Assembly: GCA_016214855.1 (NCBI GenBank)
Contig: JACRMT010000003.1
Location: 1-64,000, forward strand
Length of the DNA: 64,000 nucleotides
Source: Nitrospirota bacterium
Lineage (GTDB): Bacteria > Nitrospirota > Thermodesulfovibrionia > Thermodesulfovibrionales > UBA6898
Reading direction: 5' to 3'
Under the pieces are notes generated by a model that had not been told where the DNA came from, did not search any database, and worked only from the letters and a program-made list of their open reading frames with translations. The position numbers were made by a program, and so were the translations under genes. Below are positions 1 to 45,228 of this stretch, in pieces. The stretch's first letter is position 1, and each line of letters starts with the position of its first letter.

Positions 1-109
1 GGTGTATGCCCCCTAAAGGTCGGTGGTAGACTACCACTTCGATAGGCTGGAGGTGTAAGCGTAGTAATATGTTCAGCTGACCAGTACTAATTGACCGTGT
101 GGCTTGACC
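1..109 (+). rRNA. rrl: 23S rRNA, 3' end (partial)
   Basis: The first ~109 bases match the conserved 3' end of bacterial 23S rRNA, including the stretch 'gaccagtactaattgaccg' followed by 'tgtggcttgacc'. The gene runs in from the left edge, so only its last domain is present. A 5S gene follows about 87 bases downstream, as in a normal 16S-23S-5S operon. The exact 3' end is set by eye. Confidence 0.93.
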
Positions 110-196
110 CTTATTTCTCTTCCCTCCTGTTGTCAAAAAACAGGTTGACAAACAACCGTTCTTTGATGTTATAATAGCGTCTCTGGAAATTAAGGT

Positions 197-313
<117 letters not shown>

Positions 314-322
314 TTATACATG

Positions 323-355
323 AAAGGCCCCGAATTATATTCGGGGCCTTTTTTT
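323..355 (+). terminator. rRNA operon terminator
   Basis: A perfect 13-bp stem (323-335 with 339-351) and a 3-base loop run into a T tract. This is a strong intrinsic terminator directly after the 5S gene. It also separates the rRNA operon from the convergent formate dehydrogenase operon, but the opposite strand lacks a good T tract. Confidence 0.92.
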
Positions 356-385
356 GGTTGCCGAGCTATGCTGTTTTTTTCTTTC

Positions 386-3064
386 TTATGCTGCAGATAC
401 GCCTGCAGTAGTTATCGCTACTGCGCAGACCTTCAGCTCCGGTATCTTCACCTGGGGATCGAGCGCATCAATGGTGAGCACATTGGCAGCAGCCTCACGG
501 TAGTGCATGGGTATGAAGACCGTGCCCTCCTGCACCCTATGCGTTATTCGCGCCTTAATGGCAATCTCGCCCCTGCGCGACCTCACCTTGATAAGATCGC
601 CGTTGCTGATCCCGAGGTTCCTGCTGTCAAAAGGATTTATCTCAACATAGGGCTCACCCGCATGCGATTCTATTGGCTCAACGCGCCGTGTCATGGAGCC
701 GGAGTGATACTGGAACAGATTGCGCCCGGTTGTCAGAACAAAGGGATATTCACTGTCGCACACTTCAGCAGGCGGCTGGTATGCAACCGGCAGAAATGAG
801 ACTTTGCCCTTTGGAAAGCCGTCCTTATATAGATAGGGCGTGCCGGGATGGTCTGCTGCAGGGCAGGGCCAGCAGAGCCCGCGCTTCTCAAGCCGCGTAT
901 AGGACACCCCTGATATTGCCGGCCAGAGCTGCCGGTATTCTTCAAATATCTTCTCGGGTGAATGTGCCATATCAAGGCCGATACGTTTCGAGATCTCCGC
1001 GATGATCCAGAGATCATCCTTTGCCTCTCCAGGAGGGTTAACTGCCTTGCGCACCCTTTGAATTCTCCGCTCCGTATTGGTGAACGTGCCATTCTTCTCG
1101 AACGAGCAGGCAGCCGGTAGCACAACATCTGCAAGCTTTGCCGTATCGGTCAGAAAGATGTCCTGCACGACCAGAAGATCAAGATGTTCGAGAGCTTTGA
1201 TCGTGTGATGCATGTTCGGATCAGTGATGATCGGGTTCTCCCCCATAATGTACATGGCCTTGAGGTTTCCTTCAGCAGCCTCGTTTATCATCACCGTAGA
1301 CATCATGCCGACCTTCGGAGACAGAGGACGTCCCCAGGCCTTTTCGAATTTATTTCTGATCTCAGGATCGTCAACCTTTTGATACCCCGGATAGACATTC
1401 GGAAGACAGGCGGCGTCAGAGGCACCCTGGACATTGTTCTGGCCCCTAAGCGGATTGATGCCGGTGGATTCCCTGCCGATATTGCCGGTAAGGGATACAA
1501 GGTTAGCAAGAGCTGTAACATTGTCGGTGCCGCATGCATGCTGGGTTATCCCCATGGTGTAAAAGACCCCTGCCTTGCGCGATGAGCCGTACATACGCGC
1601 AGCCCTGATGATCTCATCTTTCGGAACGCCCGTGATCTTTTCCGCATACTCAGGGGTAAACGACTCGATAGACGCTTTCCATGCATCGAATCCCTCGGTC
1701 TTTTCTCCTATGAACTCTTCGTTCTGAAGCCCTTCGCGCAGGATAATACAGGCCATGCTGTTCAGGAGCGCGATATCAGACCCCGGACGGATCTGCAGGT
1801 GGATATCCGCGAATTTCACCATCGGAATCTTTCTCGGGTCTGCAATGATGATCTTTGCGCCCTTGCGGCGGGCCTTGATCATGCGGTTTGCGATGACCGG
1901 GTGCGTCTCCTTGGTGTTGGATCCGATGATAAAGATCACTTCCATGCCCTCGATCTCCCATATGGAGTTCGTCATTGCTCCTGAACCGAATATTTTGGCC
2001 AGACCGGCCACGGTGGGGGAGTGTCAAAGTCGGGCGCAGTGATCTACGTTGTTGGTGCCGATGCCTGCCCTGATAAGTTTTTGGAACGCATAGTTCTCTT
2101 CATTGGTGCAGCGAGCAGAAGAAAGTCCGCCGATGGAATCAGCGCCGTATCCGGCTTTTATCTCCGCAAGCCGCTTCGCCACGTGATCGAGGGCCTCGGT
2201 CCATGACGCCTTTTCGAACTCGCCGTTTCGCTTAATCAGCGGATGGGTCAGTCGCTCCTGGCTGTTCACAAAGCGGTACCCGAACCTTCCCTTTACGCAA
2301 AGCCAGCCCTCATTCAGGGTCTGTTCCTTTGATGTTATCTTGAGGATCTCGTTGTCCTTTACATGGGCGGTGATAGTGCAGCCGGTGCCGCAATACGTAC
2401 AGATCGTATCCACTTCTGTCTGATGATCTTTCCTGCCTTTTTTACTCCAGAGCTTGCCGGTGAGCGCCCCGGTAGGGCAGACACTGACACACTGTCCGCA
2501 GAACTCGCAGTCCAGGTCCTCCTCATAGCTGGTGCAGATCTTGGAATTAAAGCCGCGGTATCCGAAGTCGATCGCCTCGACGCCCTGTATCTCATCGCAG
2601 GCCTTTACGCACCTGCCGCAGAGGATGCATTTTTCGAGGTCCCTTTCTATGAACGGGTTGTTGTCACGTTTAGAATATGTCCTTCTCTCTCCCTTAAATC
2701 TGTTCTCTCTGATGCCGTAGTCATAGGCAAGGTTCTGCAGGTCGCAGCTGCCGGCTTTTTCGCAGATCATGCAGTCATTCGGATGGTCAGAGAGGATCAG
2801 CTCAAGCACGGTCTTCCTTAATTCCTGAAGGTATGGGCTCGATGTTGTGATTTCCATGCCATTGCTTACGGTGGTGGTGCATGACGTGACCGGCTTCGGC
2901 ATACCCTTTACCTCGACAATGCAGAGTCTGCAGCCGCCAAAGGGGGTAAGCTTGGGATGATGGCAGAGCGTAGGTATCGGAATTTTGAGCAGCTTTGCAG
3001 CCTGAAGGATCGTGGCAGTATCAGCCACTTCGATCGTCTTGCCGTCAATCGTGATCTTTGCCAT
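386..3064 (-). CDS. fdhA: Selenocysteine formate dehydrogenase alpha subunit 1, with NuoG-like N-terminus
   Basis: Catalytic subunit of a soluble Mo/W formate dehydrogenase, read as one 892-residue selenoprotein. A conventional ORF finder splits it at an in-frame TGA (2024-2026), codon 347, inside the conserved context CARL-U-HSPTVAGL; E. coli FdhF has Sec at the matching place. Visible domains: [2Fe-2S] ferredoxin (C34, C45, C48, C62); NuoG-type His/Cys cluster (H94, C98, C101, C107); two [4Fe-4S] clusters (C146-C156 and C186-C196); the molybdopterin enzyme's N-terminal [4Fe-4S] (C222, C225, C229, C256); then bis-PGD domains ending in a molydopterin-binding C-terminal domain (residues ~770-890). 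It follows the NuoF-like gene by one base, so NuoE-NuoF-FdhA form one operon. The reaction, formate to CO2 with electrons passed to NuoEF, is known for the family; the direction in this cell is unknown. Confidence 0.95.
1996..2026 (-). promoter_or_regulatory. Bacterial SECIS element of fdhA1
   Basis: On the minus strand the Sec UGA (2026-2024) is followed after 13 bases by a 5-bp hairpin, TGGCC-GGTCT-GGCCA (2010-1996). The loop GGUCU is the same as in the E. coli fdhF SECIS that binds SelB, and the spacing is similar. The element lies inside the coding region, as bacterial SECIS elements do. Confidence 0.87.
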
Positions 3065-3065
3065 C

Positions 3066-4847
3066 TTAATCCCTTCCTACGGACTTGAACTTGCAGACCT
3101 CGAAGCAGGCGCCGCATTTGACGCAGAGCTCCGGGTCTATTTTGTGGGGTTTCTTCTTTTCGCCGGTGATCGCTCCTGCAGGGCATGCCCTGAGACAGGC
3201 GCCGCACCCTTTGCAGGCATCCTCAATAACAGAATAGGTTATCAGGTCCTTGCAGACCTTGGCAGGGCACTTTTTTTCCCTGACATGTGCTTCGAACTCT
3301 TCCCTGAAATATTTCAGCGTGCTCAGCACGGGATTGGGAGCGGTCTGGCCGAGGCCGCAGAGCGAGGTGGCCTTGATGCTGTTGCTCAGGGTTTCAAGAA
3401 GCTCAAGGTCACTCTCCTTGCCTTGCCCTTTGGTTATCCGCTGCATGATCTCTAAGAGTCTCTTGGTGCCTATCCTGCAGGGCACGCATTTGCCGCAGGA
3501 CTCTTCCTGGGTGAACTGGATAAAGTACTTTGCCATGTTCACCATGCAGTTGTCCTCGTCAAGGACGATCATCCCGCCGGAGCCGACGATCGATCCGACC
3601 TTTGCGAGCGACTCATAATCCACGTTAATATCAAGCATATTGGCCGGGATACAGCCGCCTGACGGCCCGCCGGTCTGGACTGCCTTCAGCTTTTTCCCGC
3701 CTTCGATGCCTCCACCGATGTCCTCGATGATCTCCCGCAGCGTGATCCCCATGGGCACTTCGATCAGGCCCGGGTTCTTGATCTTACCGGTCAGGGCAAA
3801 GACCTTTGTTCCCTTCGAGCGCTCTGTTCCATGTGACGCATACCACCGATAGCCTCTTCTCATGATGTAAGGGACGTTGGCAAGGGTTTCAACGTTATTG
3901 ATGACCGTTGGCCTCTGCCACAGCCCCTTGTTCACCGGGAACGGCGGCTTCGGTCTCGGCATGCCGCGCTGGCCTTCGATAGAAGCTATGAGTGCTGTCT
4001 CTTCGCCGCAGACAAATGCGCCGGCACCCAGTTTGACCTGTATGTCAAAGTCGAAGATTGTTCCAAAGATATTGTTACCGAGAAAGTGGCGTCGTCTTGC
4101 CCTGTCTATGGCGAGCCTTAGCCGCTCCACCGCAAGAGGATATTCTGCGCGGATATAAACGTACCCGTGATGGGCGCCGATGGCATAGGCGGCAATGATC
4201 ATGCCTTCGATGACCGCATGAGGATTTCCTTCAATGACCGCGCGGTCCATAAATGCACCGGGGTCCCCCTCATCCGCATTGCAGACGATATATTTTATGT
4301 CGCCTCGGGCCTTGCGCCCCAGTTCCCACTTGAGTCCGGTAGGAAACCCGGCGCCGCCGCGACCTCTCAGTCCTGATGCCTTGATCTCTGCGATAACCTC
4401 ATCCGGCAGCCACTCTGTCAGCACGTCCCGCGCAGTCCCGTATCCTCCGACCGCATGATAGTCATCAGGGTCCTCAGGATCTATCTTCCCGCAGTCCGAG
4501 AGCACGATCTTGACCTGTTTGTGATGAAAATTCTTGTAGTCTTCGCCGACCTGCCATTCAGCTATGGGAGTTCTTCCGAGAATATGTTCCGTGACGATCC
4601 TCGGCACCATGTCAGGCTTAATGAACTGATAGGTGGTTACTGCCCCGTCGGTGAGAACGTCGACAAGCACATCCTTGGCACAGAGTCCCCGGCAGCCGAC
4701 ACGATGGGCCAAACAATGCTCTTTGACGATTGCCGGAAAATCTGCCGCCTCCAGCTCTGCACGAAATGCCTGCAAGACCTCGGCACCACCTGAGGCCATG
4801 CCGCCCGTACCCATGCAGACATTAATAACGGTCTTATTCTTTGTCAT
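3066..4847 (-). CDS. NuoF/HndC-like NADH-binding subunit of formate dehydrogenase 1
   Basis: A 593-residue diaphorase subunit that passes electrons between FdhA and NAD(H) through FMN and Fe-S clusters. Order: thioredoxin-like [2Fe-2S] domain (~1-115), NuoF core with FMN loop RGRGGAGFPTGLKWE (~161-175), nucleotide motif NADEGDPGAF (190-199), CGEETAL, [4Fe-4S] motif ESCGKCVPC, then a two-cluster ferredoxin tail (CKGCGACLRACP and CVKCGACFEVCK). All key motifs look intact, so NAD(H) is the expected partner. Its start overlaps the end of the NuoE-like gene by 14 bases and its stop is one base from fdhA, which supports translational coupling. It resembles HndC/HydB subunits of multimeric hydrogenases and FDHs. 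Confidence 0.93.
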   Translation of the reverse strand: MTKNKTVINVCMGTGGMASGGAEVLQAFRAELEAADFPAIVKEHCLAHRVGCRGLCAKDVLVDVLTDGAVTTYQFIKPDMVPRIVTEHILGRTPIAEWQVGEDYKNFHHKQVKIVLSDCGKIDPEDPDDYHAVGGYGTARDVLTEWLPDEVIAEIKASGLRGRGGAGFPTGLKWELGRKARGDIKYIVCNADEGDPGAFMDRAVIEGNPHAVIEGMIIAAYAIGAHHGYVYIRAEYPLAVERLRLAIDRARRRHFLGNNIFGTIFDFDIQVKLGAGAFVCGEETALIASIEGQRGMPRPKPPFPVNKGLWQRPTVINNVETLANVPYIMRRGYRWYASHGTERSKGTKVFALTGKIKNPGLIEVPMGITLREIIEDIGGGIEGGKKLKAVQTGGPSGGCIPANMLDINVDYESLAKVGSIVGSGGMIVLDEDNCMVNMAKYFIQFTQEESCGKCVPCRIGTKRLLEIMQRITKGQGKESDLELLETLSNSIKATSLCGLGQTAPNPVLSTLKYFREEFEAHVREKKCPAKVCKDLITYSVIEDACKGCGACLRACPAGAITGEKKKPHKIDPELCVKCGACFEVCKFKSVGRD

Positions 4848-5307
4848 CAGATGGGCCTTTCAGGGCGCGGAGTTCTTTCATGATCTTGTCCGTTGTTGCC
4901 TTGCCATAGACCTTCTTGTCCAGAATGAGAACCGGCGCAATGCTGCAGGCTCCGACGCAGTTCACCTGTTCAAGGGTTAACTCTCCGTCTTTTGTGGTGT
5001 CTGCTTCCGGCTCAAGTTTCAACTCGATCTGGAGGCTATTAAGGATGCGATCTGAGCCGCGGACATGGCAGGCGGTTCCGCAGCAGACGGTTATCTTGTG
5101 TCTGCCGGTCGGCCTCATGCGGAACTGGGCATAGAACGTTACAACCCCGAAGAACCGGCTTGGTGCGATACCGAGGGTCTGGGAGAAGTAGTCTATCGCC
5201 TCCCTCGGTATGTAGCCGAAGGCGTCCTGGGTGTCCTGCAGAAGAGAGATAATATTTCCCCCGTTCTGCCGGTATTGACTGACTATGGTTTCAAATGTTT
5301 CAATCAT
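4834..5307 (-). CDS. NuoE/HndA-like [2Fe-2S] subunit of formate dehydrogenase 1
   Basis: 157 residues, the usual length of the 24-kDa complex I subunit (NuoE). It has a helical N-terminus, then a thioredoxin-like fold carrying one [2Fe-2S] cluster; the four ligands lie in CCGTACHVRG and CVGACSIAP. It is first in the fdh1 operon. It should accept or donate single electrons next to the NuoF-like flavin subunit. The start ATG at 5307 lies just downstream of a palindromic operator-like site. Confidence 0.93.
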   Translation of the reverse strand: MIETFETIVSQYRQNGGNIISLLQDTQDAFGYIPREAIDYFSQTLGIAPSRFFGVVTFYAQFRMRPTGRHKITVCCGTACHVRGSDRILNSLQIELKLEPEADTTKDGELTLEQVNCVGACSIAPVLILDKKVYGKATTDKIMKELRALKGPSDDKE

Positions 5308-5325
5308 AAGGTTATTTTATGAAGC

Positions 5326-5342
5326 TATGATAACTTATCATA
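5326..5342. promoter_or_regulatory. Fur/PerR-like palindrome upstream of fdh operon 1
   Basis: A perfect 8-1-8 inverted repeat, TATGATAA-C-TTATCATA, lies 19 bases upstream of the first gene of the fdh1 operon. Its TGATAA/TTATCA half-sites resemble the Fur-family 7-1-7 box and also occur in the large palindrome before the perR-like gene at 60196-60228. A role as operator is inferred from position and sequence only. Confidence 0.5.
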
Positions 5343-5407
5343 AAGTCCCTTATTTTTTCCATGCGAATTTTTTTGGGCAGCTATGCATTTGCGAGGGGTA
5401 ATTCTCG

Positions 5408-5489
5408 TCCCCTTTCCAGGGGAGGAATAAGGTGGGGTAATAACAAAACAGATCAACCTCCCCATCCCCCTCCTTGGTAAGGAGGGGAT
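5408..5489. repeat. REP-like palindromic repeat, copy 1
   Basis: In the 236-base gap between the two fdh operons lie two G/C-rich palindromes: one around 'cctttccagg' and one with arms ccctcctt/aaggaggg (5468-5486). The same CCCCTCCTT-AAGGAGGGG core recurs at five other places in the window. No coding potential was seen in the gap apart from the operator at 5326. Confidence 0.75.
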
Positions 5490-5543
5490 TCCTGGGCAGT
5501 TCAATTCAAAACTGAAAATTGCGGATTACTGCAGAAGGGCTTT

Positions 5544-5975
5544 TTAATATCCTGCTATATAGTCCTTGAGATAATGGATCTCAGTAGTCATCTTGTGGAC
5601 CTGGGACAGAACGATATCCCGGATCGAGAGCATGCCTATGACCTTTCCCATGTCAACAACCGGCAGATGGCGGATGTTCTTTTCGACCATGACAGCCATG
5701 ACGCTGTTGAGGTCATCGCCGAGTTCTGCAACCATAAGGTTCTTTGTCATGGACTCGCTGACCGGAATGTCGTGGAACCTCCTCCCATCCTTGTTGATAT
5801 AGCAGCGGACAACATCGCGTTCCGTAAAGATCCCTGCAGTGCGGTCATTCTCCTCAATGATGATCGCGCTGATCTTTTTGCTGTCCATGAACCGGATCGC
5901 ATCCTCAACCGAGCCTGATGCGTCCATCGAAAAAACCTCTTTCCCCTTTGTCTCAAGCAGCTCCTGAACTTTCAT
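5544..5975 (-). CDS. Tandem CBS-domain protein
   Basis: 143 residues made almost wholly of two CBS domains (~8-62 and ~75-132); no catalytic domain is attached. Such free-standing CBS pairs usually bind adenine nucleotides or SAM and act as regulators; the ligand here is unknown. It has a strong ribosome site (AAAGGAGG) before ATG 5975. It is the last gene of the fdh2 operon, 68 bases after the cyclic-nucleotide-binding-fold gene, which suggests a role in controlling FDH2 or sensing energy state. That role is inferred from position. Confidence 0.85.
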   Translation of the reverse strand: MKVQELLETKGKEVFSMDASGSVEDAIRFMDSKKISAIIIEENDRTAGIFTERDVVRCYINKDGRRFHDIPVSESMTKNLMVAELGDDLNSVMAVMVEKNIRHLPVVDMGKVIGMLSIRDIVLSQVHKMTTEIHYLKDYIAGY

Positions 5976-6043: not shown

Positions 6044-6499
6044 CTAATAATTAACCAGTGCCTTCAGGAACTTCTCATTCATGCGCCTCACGTTGAGGGC
6101 CGAGACAATGGCTATATTCTTTATGATCTTGAGCATGCAGTGCGGCTCCTTCTTTTCGAGCTCCGTAAAGGCCTCTTTGGAGAAGAGGACCAGTTCCGTG
6201 TTTTCGAGCGCCCGAGCGTCGGTTGCATGGTCGGTCTTTTCAAGGGTCGCTATCTCGCCGATGAAGCTCCCGGGGGTTACGATCACGAGGGGCTGTTTCC
6301 ATCCGTCTGTTGTGGTCTTGGATATCTCTATCCTGCCGCTCTTGACCATATGGATGCCTTTGCATATGCCTTTCTCCCGGAAAACATGTTCATCCCTGAG
6401 CAGCCTGACCATAGACACCATAGGCAGGAGTTTTTCGAGCTCTGCATTATCGAGACCCTCAAGCAATGTCTGTGACGTTAATTCCTGAACTGTCAGCAT
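6044..6499 (-). CDS. Cyclic-nucleotide-binding-fold protein (Crp effector domain only)
   Basis: 151 residues forming one Crp/cNMP-binding beta-roll (~10-125) and a C-terminal helix; there is no helix-turn-helix, so it is not a DNA-binding Crp/Fnr regulator. The phosphate-binding cassette is recognisable (GSFIGEIATLEKTDHATDARA), but the usual Arg that contacts the cyclic phosphate appears to be His or missing, so ligand binding is doubtful. The gene begins one base after the fdhA2 stop codon and must be co-translated with it. A regulator or assembly partner of FDH2 is a reasonable inference; no enzymatic role is visible. Confidence 0.8.
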   Translation of the reverse strand: MLTVQELTSQTLLEGLDNAELEKLLPMVSMVRLLRDEHVFREKGICKGIHMVKSGRIEISKTTTDGWKQPLVIVTPGSFIGEIATLEKTDHATDARALENTELVLFSKEAFTELEKKEPHCMLKIIKNIAIVSALNVRRMNEKFLKALVNY

Positions 6500-6500
6500 A

Positions 6501-9206
6501 TTAGTCTCCCTCCCTGAAGGGTTCTACCCTGACTGCGGTGATCTTGAAGCCGGGTGTTTTTGAGATCGAGTCGATATTGGTATCGCTCGTAAGAACGTTC
6601 ACTGCTGCTTCTGCATAATGCATGGGTATGAATACCGTGCCGGGGCTGACACGGTCTGTACTCCTGACCCGGAGGACGATGCTGCCCTGCGATGAGGAGA
6701 CCTTTGCGGGGTCACCGTCCTGCATGTTGGCCCGGGCTATATCATCAGGATGCATCTCGATATACGCCTCTCCTGCGTGCTTCTCAAGCAGAGGCACCCT
6801 TCGCGTCATGGATCCGAAGTGATACTGGAAAAGGTTTCTGCCAGAGTTGAGAATGAAGGGATACTCTGTATCAGTGCTCCCGGCAGACCGCTCAAAGGGT
6901 ACAGGGGTAAAGGCTGCCCTTCCCCGGGGAAATCCGCCCTTGTATAAATGCTCGGTCCCCGGATGGTTCTTGGTCGGGCAGGGCCACTGTACGCCCCGGG
7001 ATTCGATCCGTGTATAACTTATCCCTTCAACTGCAGACCAGAGGCTGCCGAATTCTTCGAATACGCCCTCCGGAGAACTGCAGCTCATCTCATATCCCAT
7101 TCTACGGGATAGTTCCGTGATCACCCAGGAGTCGTCTCTTGCCATGCCCGGTGCTGCGACGGCCTTTCTTACCCGCTGGACCCTTCGTTCAGTATTGATG
7201 AAGGTGCCGTTTTTTTCGGCAAAGCAGGAAGAGGGGAAGACCACGTCTGCGAGTTTACCTGTCTCTGTCAGAAAGATGTCCTGAACGATAAGCAGTTCGA
7301 GCGTTTCAAACCCCTTTTTCGTATGGCTGACGTTGGCATCGCCCAGAACGGGATTTTCGCCCATCACGTACGCGGCCCTGATGCTGCCGTCCAGGGCCTT
7401 CTGTGCAAGCTCGGAAGCGGCTATGCCCGGCCGGGCAGAAAGCGACCTTCCCCATGCTGCCTCAAACTTCTCCTGTATCTCGGGAATATCGACCCGCTGG
7501 TACCCGGGGAATATGTTCGGCAGGCACCCAGCATCGCACGCGCCCTGCACGTTGTTCTGACCTCGCAGCGCATTGATACCCGTGAACTCCCTTCCGATAT
7601 TACCGGTCAGGAGTGCGAGATTTGCGATTGCGTTCACATTGGCTGTTCCGTTCACATGCTGGGTAATACCCATCCCGTAATAGATGGCCGCTTTTCTTGA
7701 TCCGCCATAGAGCCTTGCTGCGTGTATGATCTTTTCCCTGGGCACGCCGGTCAGTTTTTCTCCGACCTCTGGCGTGAACTCTTCAATGCTCTTTTTCCAG
7801 TCGTCAAACTGGCGGGTCTGGGCTTCGATGAATTCGCTGTTCTGCAGCCCTTCTGCAAGAATAACATGACTGATGCTGTTCAGAAGAGCTATGTCCGTCC
7901 CCGGCCTCTGCCTGAGCCATGTCTCGGCAAAGCGGCACATGGCCAGCTTCCGCGGATCAGCGACAATGATCTTCGCTCCCTTCTGATGCGCCCTGATCAT
8001 GGCGTTTGCTATGACCGGATGGGCTTCCTTGGTGTTTGACCCGACGATGAAGATTACTTCATTGCCCTCGATCTCACGGACCGAATTGGTCATTGCTCCT
8101 GAACCGAATACAGTGGCCAGACTGGCCACAGTGGCGGCGTGTCAAAGCCGGGCGCAGTGGTCAACATTGTTCGTGCCGACTGCTGCCCGCATGAACTTCT
8201 GAAAGAGGTAATTCTCCTCAGTAGTGCAGCGCGCAGAAGAAAGCCCGGCAATGGCATCAGGACCATGCGCTTCTTTTATTTTGTTTAATTTATTTGCCGC
8301 AAAATCCAGGGCCTCTTCCCATGAGGCAGCCTGGAGCCTGCCATCTTTTCTGATGAGGGGTTGCTTAAGTCTGTCAGGGCTTGATACAAAACTGTAACCG
8401 AACCTGCCTTTTACGCAGAGCAGCCCTTTGTTCACAACACTGTCCGGCCGTGAAGAGACCCTGATGATCTCATTGTTCTTTACATGAAGTGTAATGCTGC
8501 AGCCAACGCCGCAATACGAGCAGGTGGTGTCGACCTCCCGTATCTTCCAGTATCGTCCTTTGCCGATCCAGTCCCGGCCGACAAGGGCGCCGGTAGGGCA
8601 TGCCATGACGCACTGGCCGCAGAACTCGCAGTCGAGGTCTCGTTCAAACGGAGGGCAGACCTTGGTGCCGAACCCCTTGTACGCGAAATCGATCGCTCCT
8701 ACGCCCTGGACCTCATCGCAGATCTTTACACACCGTCCGCAGAGGATGCACTTTTCCATGTCGCGCTCAATAAAACGGTTGGCATCTTTTTTGTCGTATA
8801 TTCTCCGCTCACCGCTGAAGAGGGGTTTCCTGATGTTATACATATAGGCAAGTTCCTGCAGTTCGCACTCGCCTGTCTTCTGGCAGACCATGCAGTCGTA
8901 AGGATGATCGCTCAGGATCAGGTCAATGGTGTCCCTTCTGAGGTCTTCAATATACGGAGAGTTCGTGATGACCTCCATATCCTTTTCGACCGGTGTAGTG
9001 CAGGATGTTACCGGGGTCCCATTTACCTCAACAATGCAGACCCTGCATGCGCCTGACTGGCTGATCATCGGGTGATTGCAGAGCGCCGGGATATAGATGC
9101 CGATCTCCTTTGCTGCTTCGAGGATCGTCCTGCCTTCAACAACATCAATGACCTGGCTGTTGATCCTGAGCCTGACCGTCTTATTTATCTCTTTCTTAGT
9201 GCTCAT
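6501..9206 (-). CDS. fdhA: Selenocysteine formate dehydrogenase alpha subunit 2, with NuoG-like N-terminus
   Basis: Second FDH catalytic subunit, 901 residues when the in-frame TGA at 8142-8144 (codon 355) is read as Sec in CARL-U-HAATVASL. The architecture is that of fdhA1: [2Fe-2S] domain (C43, C54, C57, C69), HPYDCMVCQKTGEC cluster, two ferredoxin clusters (CILCGRCVKIC, CEFCGQCVMACP), CSYCGVGC cluster, bis-PGD domains. The start ATG overlaps the stop of the NuoF-like gene as ATGA. The two FdhA proteins are clearly similar along their length but differ at many positions, so the duplication is not recent. Unlike fdh1, this operon goes on into two sensor-fold genes. Confidence 0.95.
8113..8144 (-). 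promoter_or_regulatory. Bacterial SECIS element of fdhA2
   Basis: The Sec UGA (8144-8142) is followed after 12 bases by a perfect 6-bp hairpin, GTGGCC-AGTCT-GGCCAC (8129-8113). The loop AGUCU differs by one base from the fdhF-type loop GGUCU seen in fdhA1. Stem position and size match the fdhF SECIS. Confidence 0.87.
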
Positions 9207-10969
9207 TGTTTTTTGATCGCCTTGAACTTGCAGGCCTTATAGCAGGCCCCGCACTTTATGCAGGCAGCAGCATCGATCCGGTGCGGTTTCTTCACCTCTC
9301 CCGAGACAGCCCCTGCAGGGCAGACCTTTTTGCAGAGGGTGCAGCCCTTGCATTGCTCTTCAATAATGGAAAAAGTTATCAGCGCCGTGCAGACGCCGGC
9401 AGGACATCTCTTCTCTTTAATATGCGCCAAATACTCGTCGCGGAAATGGTTCAGGCCGGTGATGAACGGGTTCGAAGCGCTCCTGCCGAGGCCGCAGAGA
9501 GACGAGGTCTTCATCAGTCCGCTCAGCCGCTCAAGCGTTGCAAGGTCCTTATATTCAGCAGTGCCTTCTGTTATCTTTGTCAGCAGTTCCAGCATCCTTT
9601 TCGTGCCGATCCTGCAGGGCGGACACTTGCCGCAGGATTCCCGCTGCAGGAACTCCATAAAGAACTTTGTGATCGATACGATGCAGTCGTCTTCATTGAA
9701 GACGACCATACCGCCCGAACCGACAATGCTGCCGATCTTCGAAAGGTTTTCGTAATCAAGTCCCATATCGAGCATTGAGGCAGGGATAAGGCCGCCTGAA
9801 GGTCCGCCGACCTGTACTGCCTTTAAGGCCCGGCCGCCTTCCATGCCGCCGCCGATGCCGTACACAATATCCCGGAACGGCATGCCCATAGGGATCTCGA
9901 CAAGTCCGACATTTTTCACCTTGCCTGAAAGCGTGAACACCTTCGTGCCTGTGCTCTCTTTTGTTCCGATGGACGAGAACCAGTCCGGGCCTTTGCCGAT
10001 GATAAGCGGGATATTCGAAAAGGTTTCTGCATTATTGATCACCGTCGGTTTTCCCCAAAGGCCTTTCTGCACAGGGAAGGGCGGCCTGACCCTTGGCATG
10101 GCCCTCTTGCCTTCGATCGATTCCATTAGTGCGGTCTCTTCGCCGCAGATGAAGGCCTCTGTCCCGAAACTGAACTCAATAGCAAAGCAGAAGTCAGTGC
10201 CGAAGATATTTCTGCCGATGAACCCTTTATCCTTTGCCTGGTCTATGGCGGCGCGAAGTCTTTCAACAGACAGATGATATCTCTCCCGTATATAGATGAA
10301 TCCTTTTTCAGCACCGATTGCATATCCGCCGATCAGCAGGCCTTCAATAATAGCGTGGGGGTTTCCTTCGGCCAGGGGTCGGTTCACTTCACCCACATTG
10401 CAGATGATATATTTTGTTTCATCAGGCTGGTTCTTGCAGAGTTCCCATTTCGTGCCTGCGGGGAACCCGCTTCCGCCCCTGCCCCTGAGTCCTGACCGTA
10501 TAACGTTTTTTATGACGTCATCACGCCTCATTTTTGAGATCGCCTTTTTCGCAGCCCGGTATCCCTTTATGGCAAGGTAGTCGTCAATGCTTTCCGGGTC
10601 TATCTCACCGCAGGGACCGAGCACGATCTTGTGTTGTCTGCTCTGAAAGGATTCGTAATCCTCTTTGGTGAGCCACTCGGCAACCGGTTCACCCTTAAGG
10701 ATATGTTCTGCTACGATCTTCTCGACCATGGTCGGCTTGACCGACTGATAGGTGACTTTCTGATCGTTGATGATCACATCCACCAGCACGTCCTTGGAAC
10801 AGAAGCCTCTGCAGCCGACCTTCGTATAACTGCACCTCTTGCCGATCTGCGCTTCGATCCCGTTCAGCTGAATGAGCTTCTGAAAAATGCTCATGACATC
10901 TGCACCTCCGGATGCCTTTCCCGAGGTGCCGAGACAGACCTTTATGCTCACTGTCTGCTGCTCAGTCAT
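9203..10969 (-). CDS. NuoF-like subunit of formate dehydrogenase 2, altered nucleotide loop
   Basis: 588 residues from the ATG at 10969. That start was chosen because a longer frame only adds sequence inside the NuoE-like gene, and because the protein then begins like its paralog (VCLGTSGKASGGADV against VCMGTGGMASGGAEV). Fe-S motifs are kept (ESCGKCPPC; CKGCTLCKKVCP; CIKCGACYKACK) and the FMN loop is RGRGGSGFPAGTKWE. The motif that holds FMN and NADH in the paralog (NADEGDPGAFMDR, residues 190-202) is replaced by NVGEVNRPLAEG (191-202), six residues shorter, and GAGAF before CGEETAL is FGTEAF. NAD(H) use is therefore doubtful; another electron carrier is possible. Overlaps its neighbours by 8 and 4 bases. 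Confidence 0.9.
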   Translation of the reverse strand: MTEQQTVSIKVCLGTSGKASGGADVMSIFQKLIQLNGIEAQIGKRCSYTKVGCRGFCSKDVLVDVIINDQKVTYQSVKPTMVEKIVAEHILKGEPVAEWLTKEDYESFQSRQHKIVLGPCGEIDPESIDDYLAIKGYRAAKKAISKMRRDDVIKNVIRSGLRGRGGSGFPAGTKWELCKNQPDETKYIICNVGEVNRPLAEGNPHAIIEGLLIGGYAIGAEKGFIYIRERYHLSVERLRAAIDQAKDKGFIGRNIFGTDFCFAIEFSFGTEAFICGEETALMESIEGKRAMPRVRPPFPVQKGLWGKPTVINNAETFSNIPLIIGKGPDWFSSIGTKESTGTKVFTLSGKVKNVGLVEIPMGMPFRDIVYGIGGGMEGGRALKAVQVGGPSGGLIPASMLDMGLDYENLSKIGSIVGSGGMVVFNEDDCIVSITKFFMEFLQRESCGKCPPCRIGTKRMLELLTKITEGTAEYKDLATLERLSGLMKTSSLCGLGRSASNPFITGLNHFRDEYLAHIKEKRCPAGVCTALITFSIIEEQCKGCTLCKKVCPAGAVSGEVKKPHRIDAAACIKCGACYKACKFKAIKKQ

Positions 10970-11453
10970 ATTCAAAGCCTGTGTACTCCCCTTCTTTTTC
11001 GAAGCCCTTGACCAGCTTAACCACCTGCTCTGAGTCCACGTTGCCATATACCTGATTGTTCAGGATCGCCACAGGCGCAATGCTGCAGGCCCCGATGCAG
11101 GTTGCGTTCTGGACCGTAAAGGAGAGGTCCTGTGTGGTGTCCTCACCTTTGCCGAGACCGAGAGCTGACCTGACCTCAGAGAGGATCTGGTCAGCGCCTT
11201 TAATGTGGCATGCAGCGCCGCAGCATACGGTTATGGTGTTCTTGCCTGTCGGTTTGAGATGGAACTGGGAATAGAATGTTGCAATGCCGAAGAACCTGCT
11301 CTCCGGGATGTCCAGTCTTTTCGAAAACCAGACAACCGCTTCTTCGGGAAGATACCCAAATGCCGCCTGCGTCTGCTGAAGCAGGGTGATAAGAGTCCCT
11401 TTCGACTTCATATGAGTGTCGAGAACAGCTTTTAGCTTATGGTCCATGATCAT
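10962..11453 (-). CDS. NuoE/HndA-like [2Fe-2S] subunit of formate dehydrogenase 2
   Basis: 163 residues; a NuoE-like thioredoxin fold with [2Fe-2S] ligands in CCGAACHIKG and CIGACSIAP. First gene of the fdh2 operon. Two in-frame ATGs (11453 and 11447) are possible starts and neither has a well-spaced ribosome site. A TATAAT lies at 11516-11511 on the minus strand, about 58 bases upstream, without a clear -35 box. No palindrome like that before fdh1 was seen here, so the two operons are probably controlled differently. Confidence 0.92.
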   Translation of the reverse strand: MIMDHKLKAVLDTHMKSKGTLITLLQQTQAAFGYLPEEAVVWFSKRLDIPESRFFGIATFYSQFHLKPTGKNTITVCCGAACHIKGADQILSEVRSALGLGKGEDTTQDLSFTVQNATCIGACSIAPVAILNNQVYGNVDSEQVVKLVKGFEKEGEYTGFEYD

Positions 11454-11876: not shown

Positions 11877-11953
11877 AAATCTCCCCTCGCCCCTCTTTGC
11901 CAAAGAGGGGAATTGTTTCTCCCTTTGGCAAAGGGAGGCTAGGAGGGATTTAT
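11877..11953. repeat. REP-like palindromic repeat, copy 2
   Basis: Two adjacent palindromes, one with arms cccctctttg/caaagagggg and one with ccctttg/caaaggg, flanked by 'aaatctccc' and 'gggattt'. It is nearly identical in part to the copy at 22652-22692. It fills the gap between the Cys-rich gene and the DUF1847 gene. Confidence 0.78.
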
Positions 11954-22242: not shown

Positions 22243-22279
22243 GTCCCCACTTTAGCAAAGGGGGGTGAGGGGGGATTTG
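22243..22279. repeat. REP-like palindromic repeat, copy 3 (left of DUF559 gene)
   Basis: 'gtccccactttagcaaagg' followed by 'ggggtgaggggggattt' is a degenerate copy of the family core (ccc-cttt-gcaaag-ggg). It lies 19 bases before the DUF559 gene, which has another copy at its 3' end. Confidence 0.65.
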
Positions 22280-22298
22280 CTAATGCCGGGGCCTGACA

Positions 22299-22646
22299 AT
22301 GCTTTCGTATAATAAGAAGATTAAACAGCTATCGAGAAACCTCAGAAGTAACATGACAGATACCGAGATGTTGCTGTGGTCAAGACTCAGAGGAAAGCAG
22401 TTAAAGGGCCTGCAGTTTTACAGACAGAAGATTATAGGCAACTACATTGCTGATTTTTATTGTCCGAAAGCAAGGCTGGTTATTGAGGTTGATGGAGCGC
22501 AGCATTTTGACTTGGAGGGACGAGAGCAAGACAGGGGAAGAGATGACTACATGGTGAAGGCAGGAATAACTGTTCTGAGATTTTCAAACACTGAGGTGTT
22601 AGGGAATATTGAAGCGGTTTTGAAAATGATTTGGAGTAAAATATGA
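22299..22646 (+). CDS. DUF559 endonuclease-like protein
   Basis: 115 residues, the usual size of a free DUF559 domain (restriction-endonuclease-like fold related to very-short-patch repair nucleases). Key region: FYRQKIIGNYIADFYCPKA then LVIEVDGAQHF (~48-75), holding the Asp and Glu expected to bind metal. It lies between two REP-like palindromes and splits the A2M/pbpC cluster. Its stop codon overlaps the next start (ATGA at 22643). The function of these proteins is not established; the arrangement recalls REP-associated elements. Confidence 0.85.
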   Translation: MLSYNKKIKQLSRNLRSNMTDTEMLLWSRLRGKQLKGLQFYRQKIIGNYIADFYCPKARLVIEVDGAQHFDLEGREQDRGRDDYMVKAGITVLRFSNTEVLGNIEAVLKMIWSKI

Positions 22647-24853
22647 TCAATAAATCTCCCCTCGCCCCTCTTTGCCAAAGAGGGGAAAGAGGTAAAATAA
22701 CCCACTCACTTTCACGAGTCCTTATCTTATCGAATGTTTTTTTGAGATGGCTTCTGGTTTGGCTCATTCTTGTGGCGTGCCCATCAAACAGTTCTGCCCT
22801 GCCGACGTTTGAGGAGGTAAAGAAGTCGTACAAGAAATCGGATGCTGTTCTGCTGGACAGGCACGGCGCGGTGATCCACGAGCTCAGGGTGGATGCAAAG
22901 GGAAGAAGGCTCGACTGGAAGGCACTGAAAGAGATTTCCCCTGCATTGATCAAAGTTGTTCTCCATACAGAGGACAAGCGGTTCTATGAACATAGTGGCG
23001 TTGACTGGAAGGCTGCAGGCGCCGCGGCAATAAAGAACGTCTTCTCAGCCGAGAAGCGCGGTGCGAGCACGATCACCATGCAGGTAGCTGCAATGCTCGA
23101 TAAAGAGCTCAGGCCAAAGACAAAGAAGCGGAGCATGGCACAGAAATGGGACCAGATGCAGGCTGCACGTCAGCTTGAGGGTTCATGGAAAAAGGACGAG
23201 ATCCTTGATGCGTACCTGAATCTCGTCACCTTCAGGGGAGAGCTCCAGGGCATCACCTCTGCTTCGAGAGGGCTTTTCGAAAAGGATGCAAGCGGTCTTG
23301 ATGATCAGGAATCAGTGATCCTTGCCTCACTGATCAGGGGACCCAATGCTTCCCCGGATGCGGTTGCCAAACGTGCATGCCTTCTTGCAGAGGCCATGCG
23401 CAATACGTCAACATGCGATAATCTGAAGGCCCTTGCAGCCAAGGCCCTTGTCGGTCCCTATGGCGTGAAGCAGAGGACCGGCCTTGCCCCGCAGGTTGCG
23501 CAGAAACTCCTGAAGAACAACATGACATCAGCCGCATCAACGCTTGATGGTGGTCTTCAGCGTTTCGCATCTGATACGCTCACCTATCATCTTGCTGCAG
23601 TGAGAAAGCAGAATGTCCATGACGGGGCAGTGCTCGTTGTTGATAACAGGACAGGAGAGATACTTGCCTATGTTGCCAACAGCGGGGACCTTTCGACTGC
23701 GCGCCATCTGGACGGAATCATTGCCCGCAGGCAGGCAGGTTCAACGCTCAAGCCTTTTTTGTACGGACTTGCCTTTGACCGGCAGCTGCTGAGGCCCACA
23801 TCAGTGCTCGTTGACAGCCCGCTCGATGTTCCCACGGTCTTCGGCGTGTACAGACCTGAAAACTATGACAATGACTTTAAGGGGCCTGTGCAGGCACGTG
23901 ATGCACTCGCTTCATCATTAAACGTGCCTGCGGTCAAGACTCTCACGCTTGTTGGGGTTGGGGCCTTTGTGAGCAAACTGGGCGAGGTCGGATTCAGTCA
24001 GCTCGAATCTGACGAGCATTACGGTTTTTCGATCGCACTCGGCACAGCCGATGTCACTCTGTATGAACTGGTGAATGCTTACAGGACCCTGGCAAATCGC
24101 GGCGTATGGTCAGAACTGAAAATAACGCCCGTAAAGATGAAAGCTAAAAAGCGGAGGGTCTATTCTGAGGAGGCTGCTTTTCTTGTTTCTGATATATTGT
24201 CGGACAGGGAGGCGCGGAGCCTGACCTTCAGTCTTGAGAATCCCCTTGCCACAAAATTCTGGACAGCAGTGAAGACCGGAACATCCAAAGACATGCGGGA
24301 CAACTGGTGCATCGGATACTCGGAAAGATACACGGTTGGCGTTTGGGTCGGCAATTTTAATGGCGAGCCCATGTGGAATGTCTCGGGCGTGACCGGTGCT
24401 GCGCCAATCTGGCATGAGGTGATGAGTTATCTTCATGCAAAGGAGACGAGCAGGTCCCCGAAGATGCCGAAAGATATGATCATACAGGCAAAGAATGAAA
24501 GAACGTCTGATGCCCGGAATAAGGAACTCGCCATCAAAGGCACTGAGCCTGCTTCCCTGCAGCGGGAAACGACTGCTCAGACAGAGTCGTCTTCGTTCAT
24601 GCAGAGGATCACCTATCCGGCAGAGGGTATGATCATTGCCCTGGACCCTGATATCCCGGAAGACCAGCAGAGGGTCTTCTTTGAGGCGAACAGAGCGGGT
24701 GATCACCTCCGCTGGAGACTGAATAGCAGGGAGATAGGCCGGGCATCAGAGATAATATCCTGGCAACCTGTCCCCGGAACATATACAATATCACTGGTTG
24801 ATACTGGCGATGCGATCATTGATTCAGTCCATTTCATGGTAAAAGGCAACTAA
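22643..24853 (+). CDS. pbpC: Penicillin-binding protein 1C
   Basis: 736 residues. Bifunctional wall synthase: glycosyltransferase motifs HTEDKRFYEHSGVDW (~112) and GASTITMQVA, then transpeptidase motifs STLK (SxxK), SLN and KTGT, and a C-terminal PBP1C-specific domain (~ITYPAEGMIIALDPDIP onward). The first ~20 residues (INKSPLAPLCQRGERGK) are encoded by a REP-like repeat, before the hydrophobic anchor (~25-48). ATG 22643 has GGAG six bases upstream and overlaps the previous stop, so it may be used. PBP1C acts in the inner membrane facing the periplasm. Confidence 0.92.
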   Translation: MINKSPLAPLCQRGERGKITHSLSRVLILSNVFLRWLLVWLILVACPSNSSALPTFEEVKKSYKKSDAVLLDRHGAVIHELRVDAKGRRLDWKALKEISPALIKVVLHTEDKRFYEHSGVDWKAAGAAAIKNVFSAEKRGASTITMQVAAMLDKELRPKTKKRSMAQKWDQMQAARQLEGSWKKDEILDAYLNLVTFRGELQGITSASRGLFEKDASGLDDQESVILASLIRGPNASPDAVAKRACLLAEAMRNTSTCDNLKALAAKALVGPYGVKQRTGLAPQVAQKLLKNNMTSAASTLDGGLQRFASDTLTYHLAAVRKQNVHDGAVLVVDNRTGEILAYVANSGDLSTARHLDGIIARRQAGSTLKPFLYGLAFDRQLLRPTSVLVDSPLDVPTVFGVYRPENYDNDFKGPVQARDALASSLNVPAVKTLTLVGVGAFVSKLGEVGFSQLESDEHYGFSIALGTADVTLYELVNAYRTLANRGVWSELKITPVKMKAKKRRVYSEEAAFLVSDILSDREARSLTFSLENPLATKFWTAVKTGTSKDMRDNWCIGYSERYTVGVWVGNFNGEPMWNVSGVTGAAPIWHEVMSYLHAKETSRSPKMPKDMIIQAKNERTSDARNKELAIKGTEPASLQRETTAQTESSSFMQRITYPAEGMIIALDPDIPEDQQRVFFEANRAGDHLRWRLNSREIGRASEIISWQPVPGTYTISLVDTGDAIIDSVHFMVKGN
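22652..22692. repeat. REP-like palindromic repeat, copy 4 (inside pbpC start)
   Basis: Palindrome with arms cccctctttg/caaagagggg, preceded by 'aaatctccc', as in copy 2. It is read in frame as the N-terminus of PBP1C. It forms the right flank of the DUF559 gene. Confidence 0.78.
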
Positions 24854-32066: not shown

Positions 32067-32109
32067 AGCGTATTTAAGTCAAAGCAATTGAGTTGATGCG
32101 ACGGGTTGA

Positions 32110-32195
32110 ATCCCCTCCTTACCGAGGAGGGGTTGGGGAGGTTTTGGTAATATTATCTATACCCCTCCATAGCCTCCCCTTGGAAAGGGGAGGAT
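32110..32195. repeat. REP-like palindromic repeat, copy 5
   Basis: Two facing palindromes: cccctcctt-accg-aggagggg and cctcccctt-gg-aaaggggagg, about 35 bases apart. This is the same double arrangement as copies 1 and 6. It lies in the 210-base gap before the PurH-like gene, which otherwise shows nothing. Confidence 0.8.
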
Positions 32196-43753: not shown

Positions 43754-43798
43754 TTCTTTTGCATAACCTCGTTTGCCGTGACATTAATTACTTTAAAA

Positions 43799-43896
43799 CC
43801 CCACCTGACCTCCCCTTGGTAAGGGGAGGAAGTAACCCTTTTTGAGTCTTGCCACTTTTCCCCCTCCTTACCAAGGAGGGGTTAGGGGAGGTTAGG
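43799..43896. repeat. REP-like palindromic repeat, copy 6
   Basis: Two palindromes, cctcccctt-ggt-aaggggagg and cccctcctta-cc-aaggagggg, in the same facing arrangement as copies 1 and 5. Its right end runs into the 3' end of the histidine kinase gene and supplies its stop codon (TAA at 43884-43882). Confidence 0.82.
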
Positions 43897-45228
43897 TATC
43901 CATATTCTGAACGCTGAGCCTTTTCCGTCTACGCTCTTTACCTCTATTGTTCCTGCCATGGCATCGACCAGTTCCTTGACAATGGCGAGGCCAAGTCCAA
44001 TGCCATTTGATTCCTCACCCCGGTAAAACCTTTTGAAGATGTCCTGTACCCTGTCCTGGGCTATACCCTTTCCCGTGTCAGTGATCTCGATGAAAAAACC
44101 GCTGCTGTCTTTGCCGACATCAATGGATATCGAACCGTTATCTGTATATTTCAGCGCATTGGAGAGGATGTTTTGCACAATCCGTTCCAGTTTTTCAGGA
44201 TCAGAAGATACGGGCAGTTCCCCTCTGCCTGAAAGCGTTATCGCCAGTCCCTTTTCCGTGGCAAGGGGCAGCATCCTCTCCCTGATGCGCACGAGCAGCT
44301 CCCTGAGGTCAAACTGCACAATGTTCTTTTTTGTAAAAAAACTGGCCTCGGCCTTGGTAACATCTTCGATGCCCTGCACGAGTTTTATCAGATTTTCGGT
44401 CTCAGCCCGGATATTTTCAAGACCTATGGTCTGATCAGCGATGACGCCGTCGCTCATTGCCTCTATTGTTGCCTTCATGACAGCAAGCGGCGTGCGAAGT
44501 TCATGGGCAATATTGGACGTCAGATGTCTGCGCAGGGCCTCTTCGCGCTCCAGCGCCTCTGCCATGTAGTTAAAGCTGCGGCTTAGCTGGCCGAGTTCGT
44601 CTCCCGAATATACCGGGACGCGCACGCTGAAATCGCTTGCTGCAAGGGTTTCTACAGCCTCTTTCATCTTTTTCATCGGCCGCGAAAAGAAGAGACTGAA
44701 GAACAGGGAGAGAAGAACTGCCCCGCCGCCCGCAATGGCAAAGGCAACGATCAGAAAATAGATCCCTCTTTTTCTGAAGACGGTTTCTTTCTCTTCAATG
44801 CCAGGCCTGTTCAGCCGTCTCACCTGCATGGTGCCGATCTCCCTTCCTTCCTGATAGAGGGGATAGGGTTCATATTCCCCCTTTGCAGAGTTGAGGTCGG
44901 TGATCGCAAGCATCCGCTTCTTCATGGAGGGTGTGAGCATGGCAATGGCGGCTGTTGAACTCATCACCTCACGGTTTTCAGAATCATCTATCCTCGCATC
45001 GAATCCCAGCATTATGGCCCAGTGCAGGGCCTCGTGCAGCGCAGCATGGTCCCATCTGCCGTCGCTATAACTGCCTTCAACGGCTGCCATGATCCAGTAC
45101 AGCCGGTCTTCTCTGGCGCCGCTCACATATTCTTCAAAATCTCTTGTGATAAGACGTTCATAGATAAGCCCTGAGATAAGTGCAAGGAGGACAACAGCGA
45201 GAAAAGAAAGAAAAAGCTTATTCCTCAT
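43882..45228 (-). CDS. HAMP-type sensor histidine kinase
   Basis: 448 residues. Two membrane segments (~4-24 and ~157-181) frame a periplasmic sensor of ~130 residues; then HAMP (~182-230), HisKA with phospho-His H242 (SNIAHELRTPL), and HATPase_c (NILSNALKYTD, DTGKGIA, GIGLGLAIVKEL). It sits with the response regulator gene, overlapping it by 11 bases, so the two form one system. The stimulus is unknown. The stop codon lies inside a REP-like repeat. Confidence 0.93.
   Translation of the reverse strand: MRNKLFLSFLAVVLLALISGLIYERLITRDFEEYVSGAREDRLYWIMAAVEGSYSDGRWDHAALHEALHWAIMLGFDARIDDSENREVMSSTAAIAMLTPSMKKRMLAITDLNSAKGEYEPYPLYQEGREIGTMQVRRLNRPGIEEKETVFRKRGIYFLIVAFAIAGGGAVLLSLFFSLFFSRPMKKMKEAVETLAASDFSVRVPVYSGDELGQLSRSFNYMAEALEREEALRRHLTSNIAHELRTPLAVMKATIEAMSDGVIADQTIGLENIRAETENLIKLVQGIEDVTKAEASFFTKKNIVQFDLRELLVRIRERMLPLATEKGLAITLSGRGELPVSSDPEKLERIVQNILSNALKYTDNGSISIDVGKDSSGFFIEITDTGKGIAQDRVQDIFKRFYRGEESNGIGLGLAIVKELVDAMAGTIEVKSVDGKGSAFRIWIPNLP

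Follow-up and report, generated by a model that had tools for sequence, protein, structure and literature searches.

What does a small nuclease gene do between two palindromes that recur in its genome, and could its product be the enzyme that moves or cuts them? The question is raised by a DUF559 gene in a 64,000-nucleotide stretch of a Nitrospirota genome (contig JACRMT010000003.1, positions 1 to 64,000; hereafter the window, from genome G000). The gene encodes 115 amino acids (aa) on the + strand (22299-22646; PF04480, Vsr/EDxHD fold, Pfam E 5e-35), and the original prediction placed repeat copies directly before it and at its end. The locus bears this out, with a G/C-rich palindrome and a purine/pyrimidine tail on each side. 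The upstream outer end is an imperfect, unstranded palindrome, CCCCACTTT-AGC-AAAGGGGGG (22245-22265; 8/9 stem pairs), followed by a G-rich third-strand tail that faces the gene, TGAGGGGGGATTTGCT (22266-22281, + strand). Downstream, a C-rich tail, AAATCTCCCCTCG (22652-22664, + strand), also facing the gene, leads into a perfect, unstranded palindrome, CCCCTCTTTGCCAAAGAGGGG (22665-22685), which forms the other outer end. We consider this locus of ~450 bp, palindrome-tail-DUF559 gene-tail-palindrome, to be in all probability a minimal mobile unit. The best reading, to which we assign a probability of roughly two in three, is a mobile system that resembles repetitive extragenic palindromes (REP) and their REP-associated tyrosine transposases (RAYT) but is built on a nuclease of the Vsr/EDxHD fold. 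The association of DUF559 with the repeats, and their mobility, are strongly supported; that DUF559 itself catalyses the movement is probable.

DUF559 was searched for in 101 relatives, 44 of which were positive, and 60 further loci were fetched. Counted over loci that are not phylogenetically independent, strict-stem hairpins with C/T arms stood within 150 bp on both sides of 31 of 58 small DUF559 genes of the relatives, against 4 of 345 other open reading frames (ORFs) at these loci (odds ratio 98, P 5e-26). Most of the small genes that lacked a strict pair have degenerate palindrome copies. Under a single hairpin definition for both flanks, 35/58 small DUF559 genes of the relatives and 60/77 from other phyla were bracketed, compared with 5/357 neighbouring ORFs (P 1e-51); the C/T-arm definition was fixed after the first relatives had been viewed, the other phyla and control families were tested later, and the other-phyla set was picked by similarity to one DUF559 clade. 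A scan of named-species genomes found palindromes on both sides at 61 of 80 DUF559 loci, on one side at 13 and on neither at 6, in Pseudomonadota, Desulfobacterota, Chloroflexota, Nitrospinota, Bacteroidota, Cyanobacteriota, Spirochaetota and others. Flanking thus lies far above that of control genes in relatives and other phyla alike, including clades whose palindromes are entirely different. A Neisseria gonorrhoeae DUF559 locus also has triplex-type repeats nearby, and no relatives of the window protein were found in viral contigs.

Two other explanations of the bracketing were rejected with the single hairpin definition. Y1_Tnp is present in 73 of the 101 relatives, including G002, a sister species of the window genome, yet none of 21 Y1/RAYT transposase genes of the same genomes was bracketed, so RAYT was dropped as the true partner. 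Bracketing as a general feature of small mobile genes was ruled out by the Gp49 toxin genes (0/22). Other DUF559 genes without palindromes had been named in advance as evidence against a link. Most small genes are bracketed, but DUF559 domains that form part of larger proteins (393-1705 aa) are not (0/8), and a minority of the small genes have either no palindromes or degenerate ones.

The palindromes are also abundant away from the gene. The window holds five of the DUF559-flank type, against 0.04 expected in shuffled sequence, and the genome (3.30 Mb) holds 104 matches, against 1 for a reversed control. It carries two DUF559 genes only, and most palindromes sit away from both, as expected of non-autonomous copies. 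In G002 (91% identical in gyrA), which has no DUF559, two of the repeats are present at 1 and 2 copies, compared with 46 and 24 here. Among 44 genomes with DUF559 and 57 without, compared with no phylogenetic correction, at least five copies were found in 13/44 versus 2/57 for repeat P1, 4/44 versus 0/57 for P2, 8/44 versus 1/57 for P4 and 13/44 versus 2/57 for P5. P2, P4 and P5 are associated most strongly with their own DUF559 clades (1e-8, 4e-6 and 1e-7, respectively). Rather than being scattered without regard to DUF559, the palindromes therefore occur in numbers that depend on whether a genome has the nuclease.

Furthermore, the palindrome family follows the DUF559 clade, not the genome. 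Protein distance and repeat distance are correlated (Mantel r 0.65 for upstream units and 0.49 for downstream units, P 2e-4 each). Where one genome holds divergent DUF559s, their repeats are unlike (distance 0.77; all-pair mean 0.68), and where different genomes hold similar DUF559s, their repeats are alike (0.42-0.47). The second DUF559 gene of G000 (G000:C7:82549), which lies between gyrA and rsmG, has palindromes of another family on both sides, CCCTCTCC..GGAGAGGG, with the tail CCCTCACCCCTA. The window unit finds its match at G003:C99 in another species, and the gyrA-rsmG unit at G003:C73.

Read outward from the hairpin, each end comprises a purine arm, a short linker and a G-rich tail. 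Judged by its sequence, a single strand of each end can fold into a hairpin with the G-rich tail laid on the purine arm, that is, an intrastrand purine-motif triplex. We scored each tail against the mirrored purine arm by purine-motif rules (G on G-C, A or T on A-T). The triad fit of a unit's own tail was 0.893 in relatives, compared with 0.756 ± 0.010 when tails were swapped between units, and 0.787 compared with 0.725 ± 0.007 in other phyla; none of 1000 swapped-tail shuffles reached the observed fit in either set. At least 88% of scored triads conformed in 146 of 223 units (C-arm, loop, G-arm, short linker, G-rich third strand), a set from which the window's upstream unit was left out because of its stem mismatch. 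Of the triplex tails that could be placed, 145 faced the gene and 21 lay on the outer side. Across families, a change of stem thus goes with a change of tail, an argument that the folded form is important. A mini-hairpin seems to be present in the linker of some alphaproteobacterial ends, which we take to resemble rhizobial RIME1.

The borders of the unit were delimited by comparing homologous units at unrelated loci. Likeness ends at the outer palindromes, even though the comparison extended to 1.2 kb of flank: the window unit and L072, a copy in G003 that lies beside a tRNA gene, are 86.8% identical over 448 bp, with homology ending at the outer edge of the upstream palindrome (22245-22265); L054 and L056 are 84.7% identical over 452 bp; and L098 and L103, from one genome, are 78.5% identical over 438 bp. 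Orthologous sites show gains and losses. Empty sites, which the original prediction had proposed to look for, were found in G002. Between gyrA and rsmG, two species carry the unit and doublets, and a gap of ~60-150 bp separates the two genes in five further members of the genus. Two further sites are empty in the outgroup G002, occupied by a solo repeat in G000 and by the full unit in G003; units are thus gained and lost, and a solo repeat can be left behind or used by them. Across orthologous DNA, inserts of ~115-230 bp with repeats in G000 face 0-33 bp at most such sites in G002. In the Azospirillum replicons no empty site was seen, and the unit is at the same position in all of them.

The G000-solo/G003-full sites look as if a gene had entered a repeat, and they bear on the main rival to the proposed system, in which DUF559 would be a homing-endonuclease-like passenger that cuts and invades existing triplex repeats, the repeats being spread by other means; such invasion would leave the gene lying between two repeats. 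Both gene insertion into a repeat and gene loss by recombination that leaves a solo repeat can be read from these two sites, and equally well. The protein itself lends this rival further weight, since, among characterised relatives, the homing endonuclease I-Bth0305I is nearest to it in both sequence and structure, and standalone DUF559 has been termed an EDxHD homing endonuclease (PMC9403480). However, a passenger does not account for genomes without DUF559 being rarely rich in repeats, for units with both palindromes that are common to species at unrelated loci, or for the joint diversification of repeat family and nuclease clade. We regard it as unlikely. I-Bth0305I (3r3p) shares the fold and active-site layout but sits in a group I intron; no intron was seen in the DUF559 unit, whose ends, unlike those of I-Bth0305I, are triplex palindromes.

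DUF559 is a very common family with a solved structure. A profile search with the window protein retrieved 3hrl (NGO0050 of N. gonorrhoeae, a family member, as is E. coli YcjD; E 3e-36) and 3r3p (E 9e-5). Its AlphaFold model (mean predicted local distance difference test score, pLDDT, 89) matches 3hrl, 3r3p (Foldseek E 5e-4) and, more weakly, Vsr (1vsr). With PF04480 and no Y1 match, it is a nuclease of a fold other than that of RAYT, as had been proposed. Residues D52, E63, D65 and H69 are invariant, and the gene is under purifying selection (dN/dS, the ratio of nonsynonymous to synonymous substitution rates, 0.02-0.22 for 14 DUF559 pairs; 0.20 for the window gene and L072).

The resemblance to Vsr allows for a host repair or mismatch nuclease whose palindromes would be terminators or regulatory sites; a hairpin downstream of the gene could indeed terminate transcription. 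In Caulobacter, the DUF559 protein VsrA has been linked to cytosine methylation and causes DNA damage in cells that lack a cytosine methyltransferase (PMC12907096), a result that is also indirect evidence that DUF559 proteins cut DNA. Nevertheless, the palindromes stand on both sides of the gene with tails toward it, occur at dozens of unrelated sites, are clade-specific and travel with the gene between loci, and potential intrastrand triplex (PIT) repeats had neither promoter nor terminator activity according to earlier work as cited in PMC4666352. A host repair role for these units is thus very improbable.

Dispersed copies include two types of doublet. M1 has the palindrome class of the window gene with its tails outward (tail-palindrome-8 bp-palindrome-tail) and a conserved core of ~85 bp (AAATCCCTCC...GGGGAGATTT); this non-autonomous form is found at 11877-11951 (no strand) in a region that is absent in G002. 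M2 is a clade-2 unit minus its gene, with tails inward (palindrome-tail-spacer-tail-palindrome), and is set in a frame with TTCAGTTA inverted ends. M2 doublets (no strand) lie at 5408-5487, in sequence missing from the orthologous G002 spacer, and at 32108-32193, in an insert of ~200 bp where G002 and G003 have 14-16 bp. A pair of clade-2 type repeats with tails outward is located at 43797-43897 (no strand). In addition, the DUF559 genes at L147 (Devosia), L152 (Kaistia) and L076 (G000:C7) are flanked on both sides by a full doublet (tail-palindrome-spacer-palindrome-tail) rather than by single repeats.

The M2 frame invites a different account, in which the palindromes are parts of ordinary miniature inverted-repeat transposable elements moved by an unrelated transposase, with DUF559 as cargo. 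M2 copies (e.g. L230:7030-7153) lie within a frame of ~140 bp, TTCAGTTA...TAACTGAA, and one insert has a near-perfect target duplication of 11 bp (10/11 bp matching); the other inserts are blurred by divergence. By contrast, the DUF559 gene units and most M1 copies have no such frame, and their similarity stops at palindromes or tails. Cargo status also sits poorly with the unbracketed Y1/RAYT and toxin genes and with the different repeats that different DUF559 clades carry within one genome. As an account of the DUF559 units it is therefore improbable, somewhat less so than the host repair role.

The layout of the DUF559 units agrees with that of REP, their doublets (REPIN) and RAYT, as the original prediction held: a small nuclease gene lies between inverted palindromic repeats with asymmetric ends, the repeats are also dispersed in high copy as gene-less single and double copies, and the repeat family is specific to the enzyme clade. 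The part of the comparison that failed concerns the Y1/RAYT genes of the same genomes, which lack bracketing palindromes. The enzymes differ as well, RAYT being an HUH Y1 protein (TnpA-REP) and DUF559 having the PD-(D/E)XK/EDxHD (Vsr) fold. The GTAG/CGTC tag of REP is absent from the DUF559 repeats, which have C/G-rich triplex tails instead, e.g. AAATCTCCCCTnn and CCCTCACCCTAA.

Known since the 1990s, BoxC, PIT and triplex repeats have been associated with genome instability; no gene for their spread is known to us. The repeats that flank DUF559 are these orphan BoxC/PIT/intrastrand triplex motifs. They share the design, and those of clade 5 have nearly the same sequence (CCCTCTCCC..GGGAGAGGG-NNN-GGGTGAGGG) as BoxC/PIT and TM_ECO, the E. 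coli motif. BoxC/PIT have been described as orphans, whereas here they are tied to DUF559 and fall into several sequence families, a few with a linker mini-hairpin. The E. coli motif forms a stable triplex in vitro, and triplex repeats are reported from >260 genomes, with 23 copies in MG1655; their inverted pairs always join types A and B, genome variation is raised locally, and mobility genes were never found beside them (PMC4666352). According to the published table (PMC4666352), TM_ECO copy 9 (1,351,204-1,351,239) lies 166 bp downstream of ycjD and is the sole listed copy between 0.62 and 3.05 Mb; only this one nearby repeat was seen at ycjD, unlike at the bracketed DUF559 units. Our literature search covered open-access papers, with subscription journals outside its scope, and found none that links DUF559 to palindromes or triplex repeats; the suggestion of an undescribed element type appears correct for that literature.

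We propose the following scheme for the REP-RAYT-like system. A single-stranded repeat, most likely exposed at replication forks, would fold into the triplex hairpin. The DUF559 protein would recognise the triplex ends of its cognate family and nick or cut there, thereby freeing or copying its own gene unit; in trans, it would mobilise the gene-less single and double repeats. Recognition, the strand and position of the cut, and the joining of the new copy are all steps that we infer.

Several observations weigh against this scheme. The main caution concerns M2: the cognate clade-2 DUF559 is absent from this genome, although present in G003, and the doublets lie in the TTCAGTTA frame; therefore, M2 may be moved by another transposase. 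Tails point inward in the gene unit and outward in the M1 doublet, and no simple cut-and-paste scheme fits both. Indels around the empty sites exceed the conserved core by 40-70 bp. P1 tracks clade 3 (1e-4) slightly better than its own clade 1 (5e-4), and a few genomes without DUF559 (G038, G068, G009 and G016) hold 5-8 copies. Lastly, in vivo footprinting in E. coli detected no stable triplexes (PMC4666352).

Joining DUF559 to the triplex repeats gives each a testable role, and YcjD with TM_ECO in E. coli K-12 provides a ready laboratory test system. If the proposal is true, DUF559 would be a second, unrelated type of enzyme for the dispersal of REP-like repeats and an example of nuclease adaptation to DNA that forms triplexes. 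We lean slightly towards a still broader view: bacteria would widely harbour a class of mobile DNA whose 115-aa EDxHD-fold nuclease recognises its ends as intrastrand triplexes and disperses triplex repeats. DUF559 would then be the enzyme so far lacking for BoxC/PIT and RIME-like repeats in different phyla.

The gene was also said to split the neighbouring pair A2M and pbpC. It does lie between them, but so does an ORF of 341-365 aa (21117/21189-22211/22214), located between A2M and DUF559, which has no Pfam match. No homologue of the 341-aa form was found in 26 genomes of the family, and it was consequently dropped as a marker for an empty site. The A2M-pbpC gap measures only 252 bp in one of the two closest species and 175 bp in the other; the entire 1.6 kb here thus sets the window apart from both. 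The pbpC ORF as listed (22643-24853) begins within the downstream repeat (MINKSPLAPLCQRGERG...), and its real start is probably further in; similarly, several DUF559 C-termini are translated repeat (of the SPSPQPSPQRGEGG type).

At L058 (G048:C9, ~5000-5560), DUF559 and its palindromes lie in frame inside an apparent type I restriction specificity (hsdS-like) gene. At L057 and L060 (G010:C257 and C229), two duplicated copies, they are in frame inside a BRO-type antirepressor-like gene and apparently take the place of its middle part. L198 (A. argentinense MTCC4035) has ~1.16 kb of extra DNA (709-1873) beside the upstream palindrome of DUF559 relative to sister strains. G003 carries a 7.3-kb insertion (L216-L217, G003:C36, ~95500-102800) between its orthologues of pbpC and of the gene that follows in the window. 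Finally, a gene cluster is present twice in tandem in the window, at positions 1-5000 and 6100-11100, in copies that have diverged to 65-76% DNA identity at an offset of ~6.1 kb.
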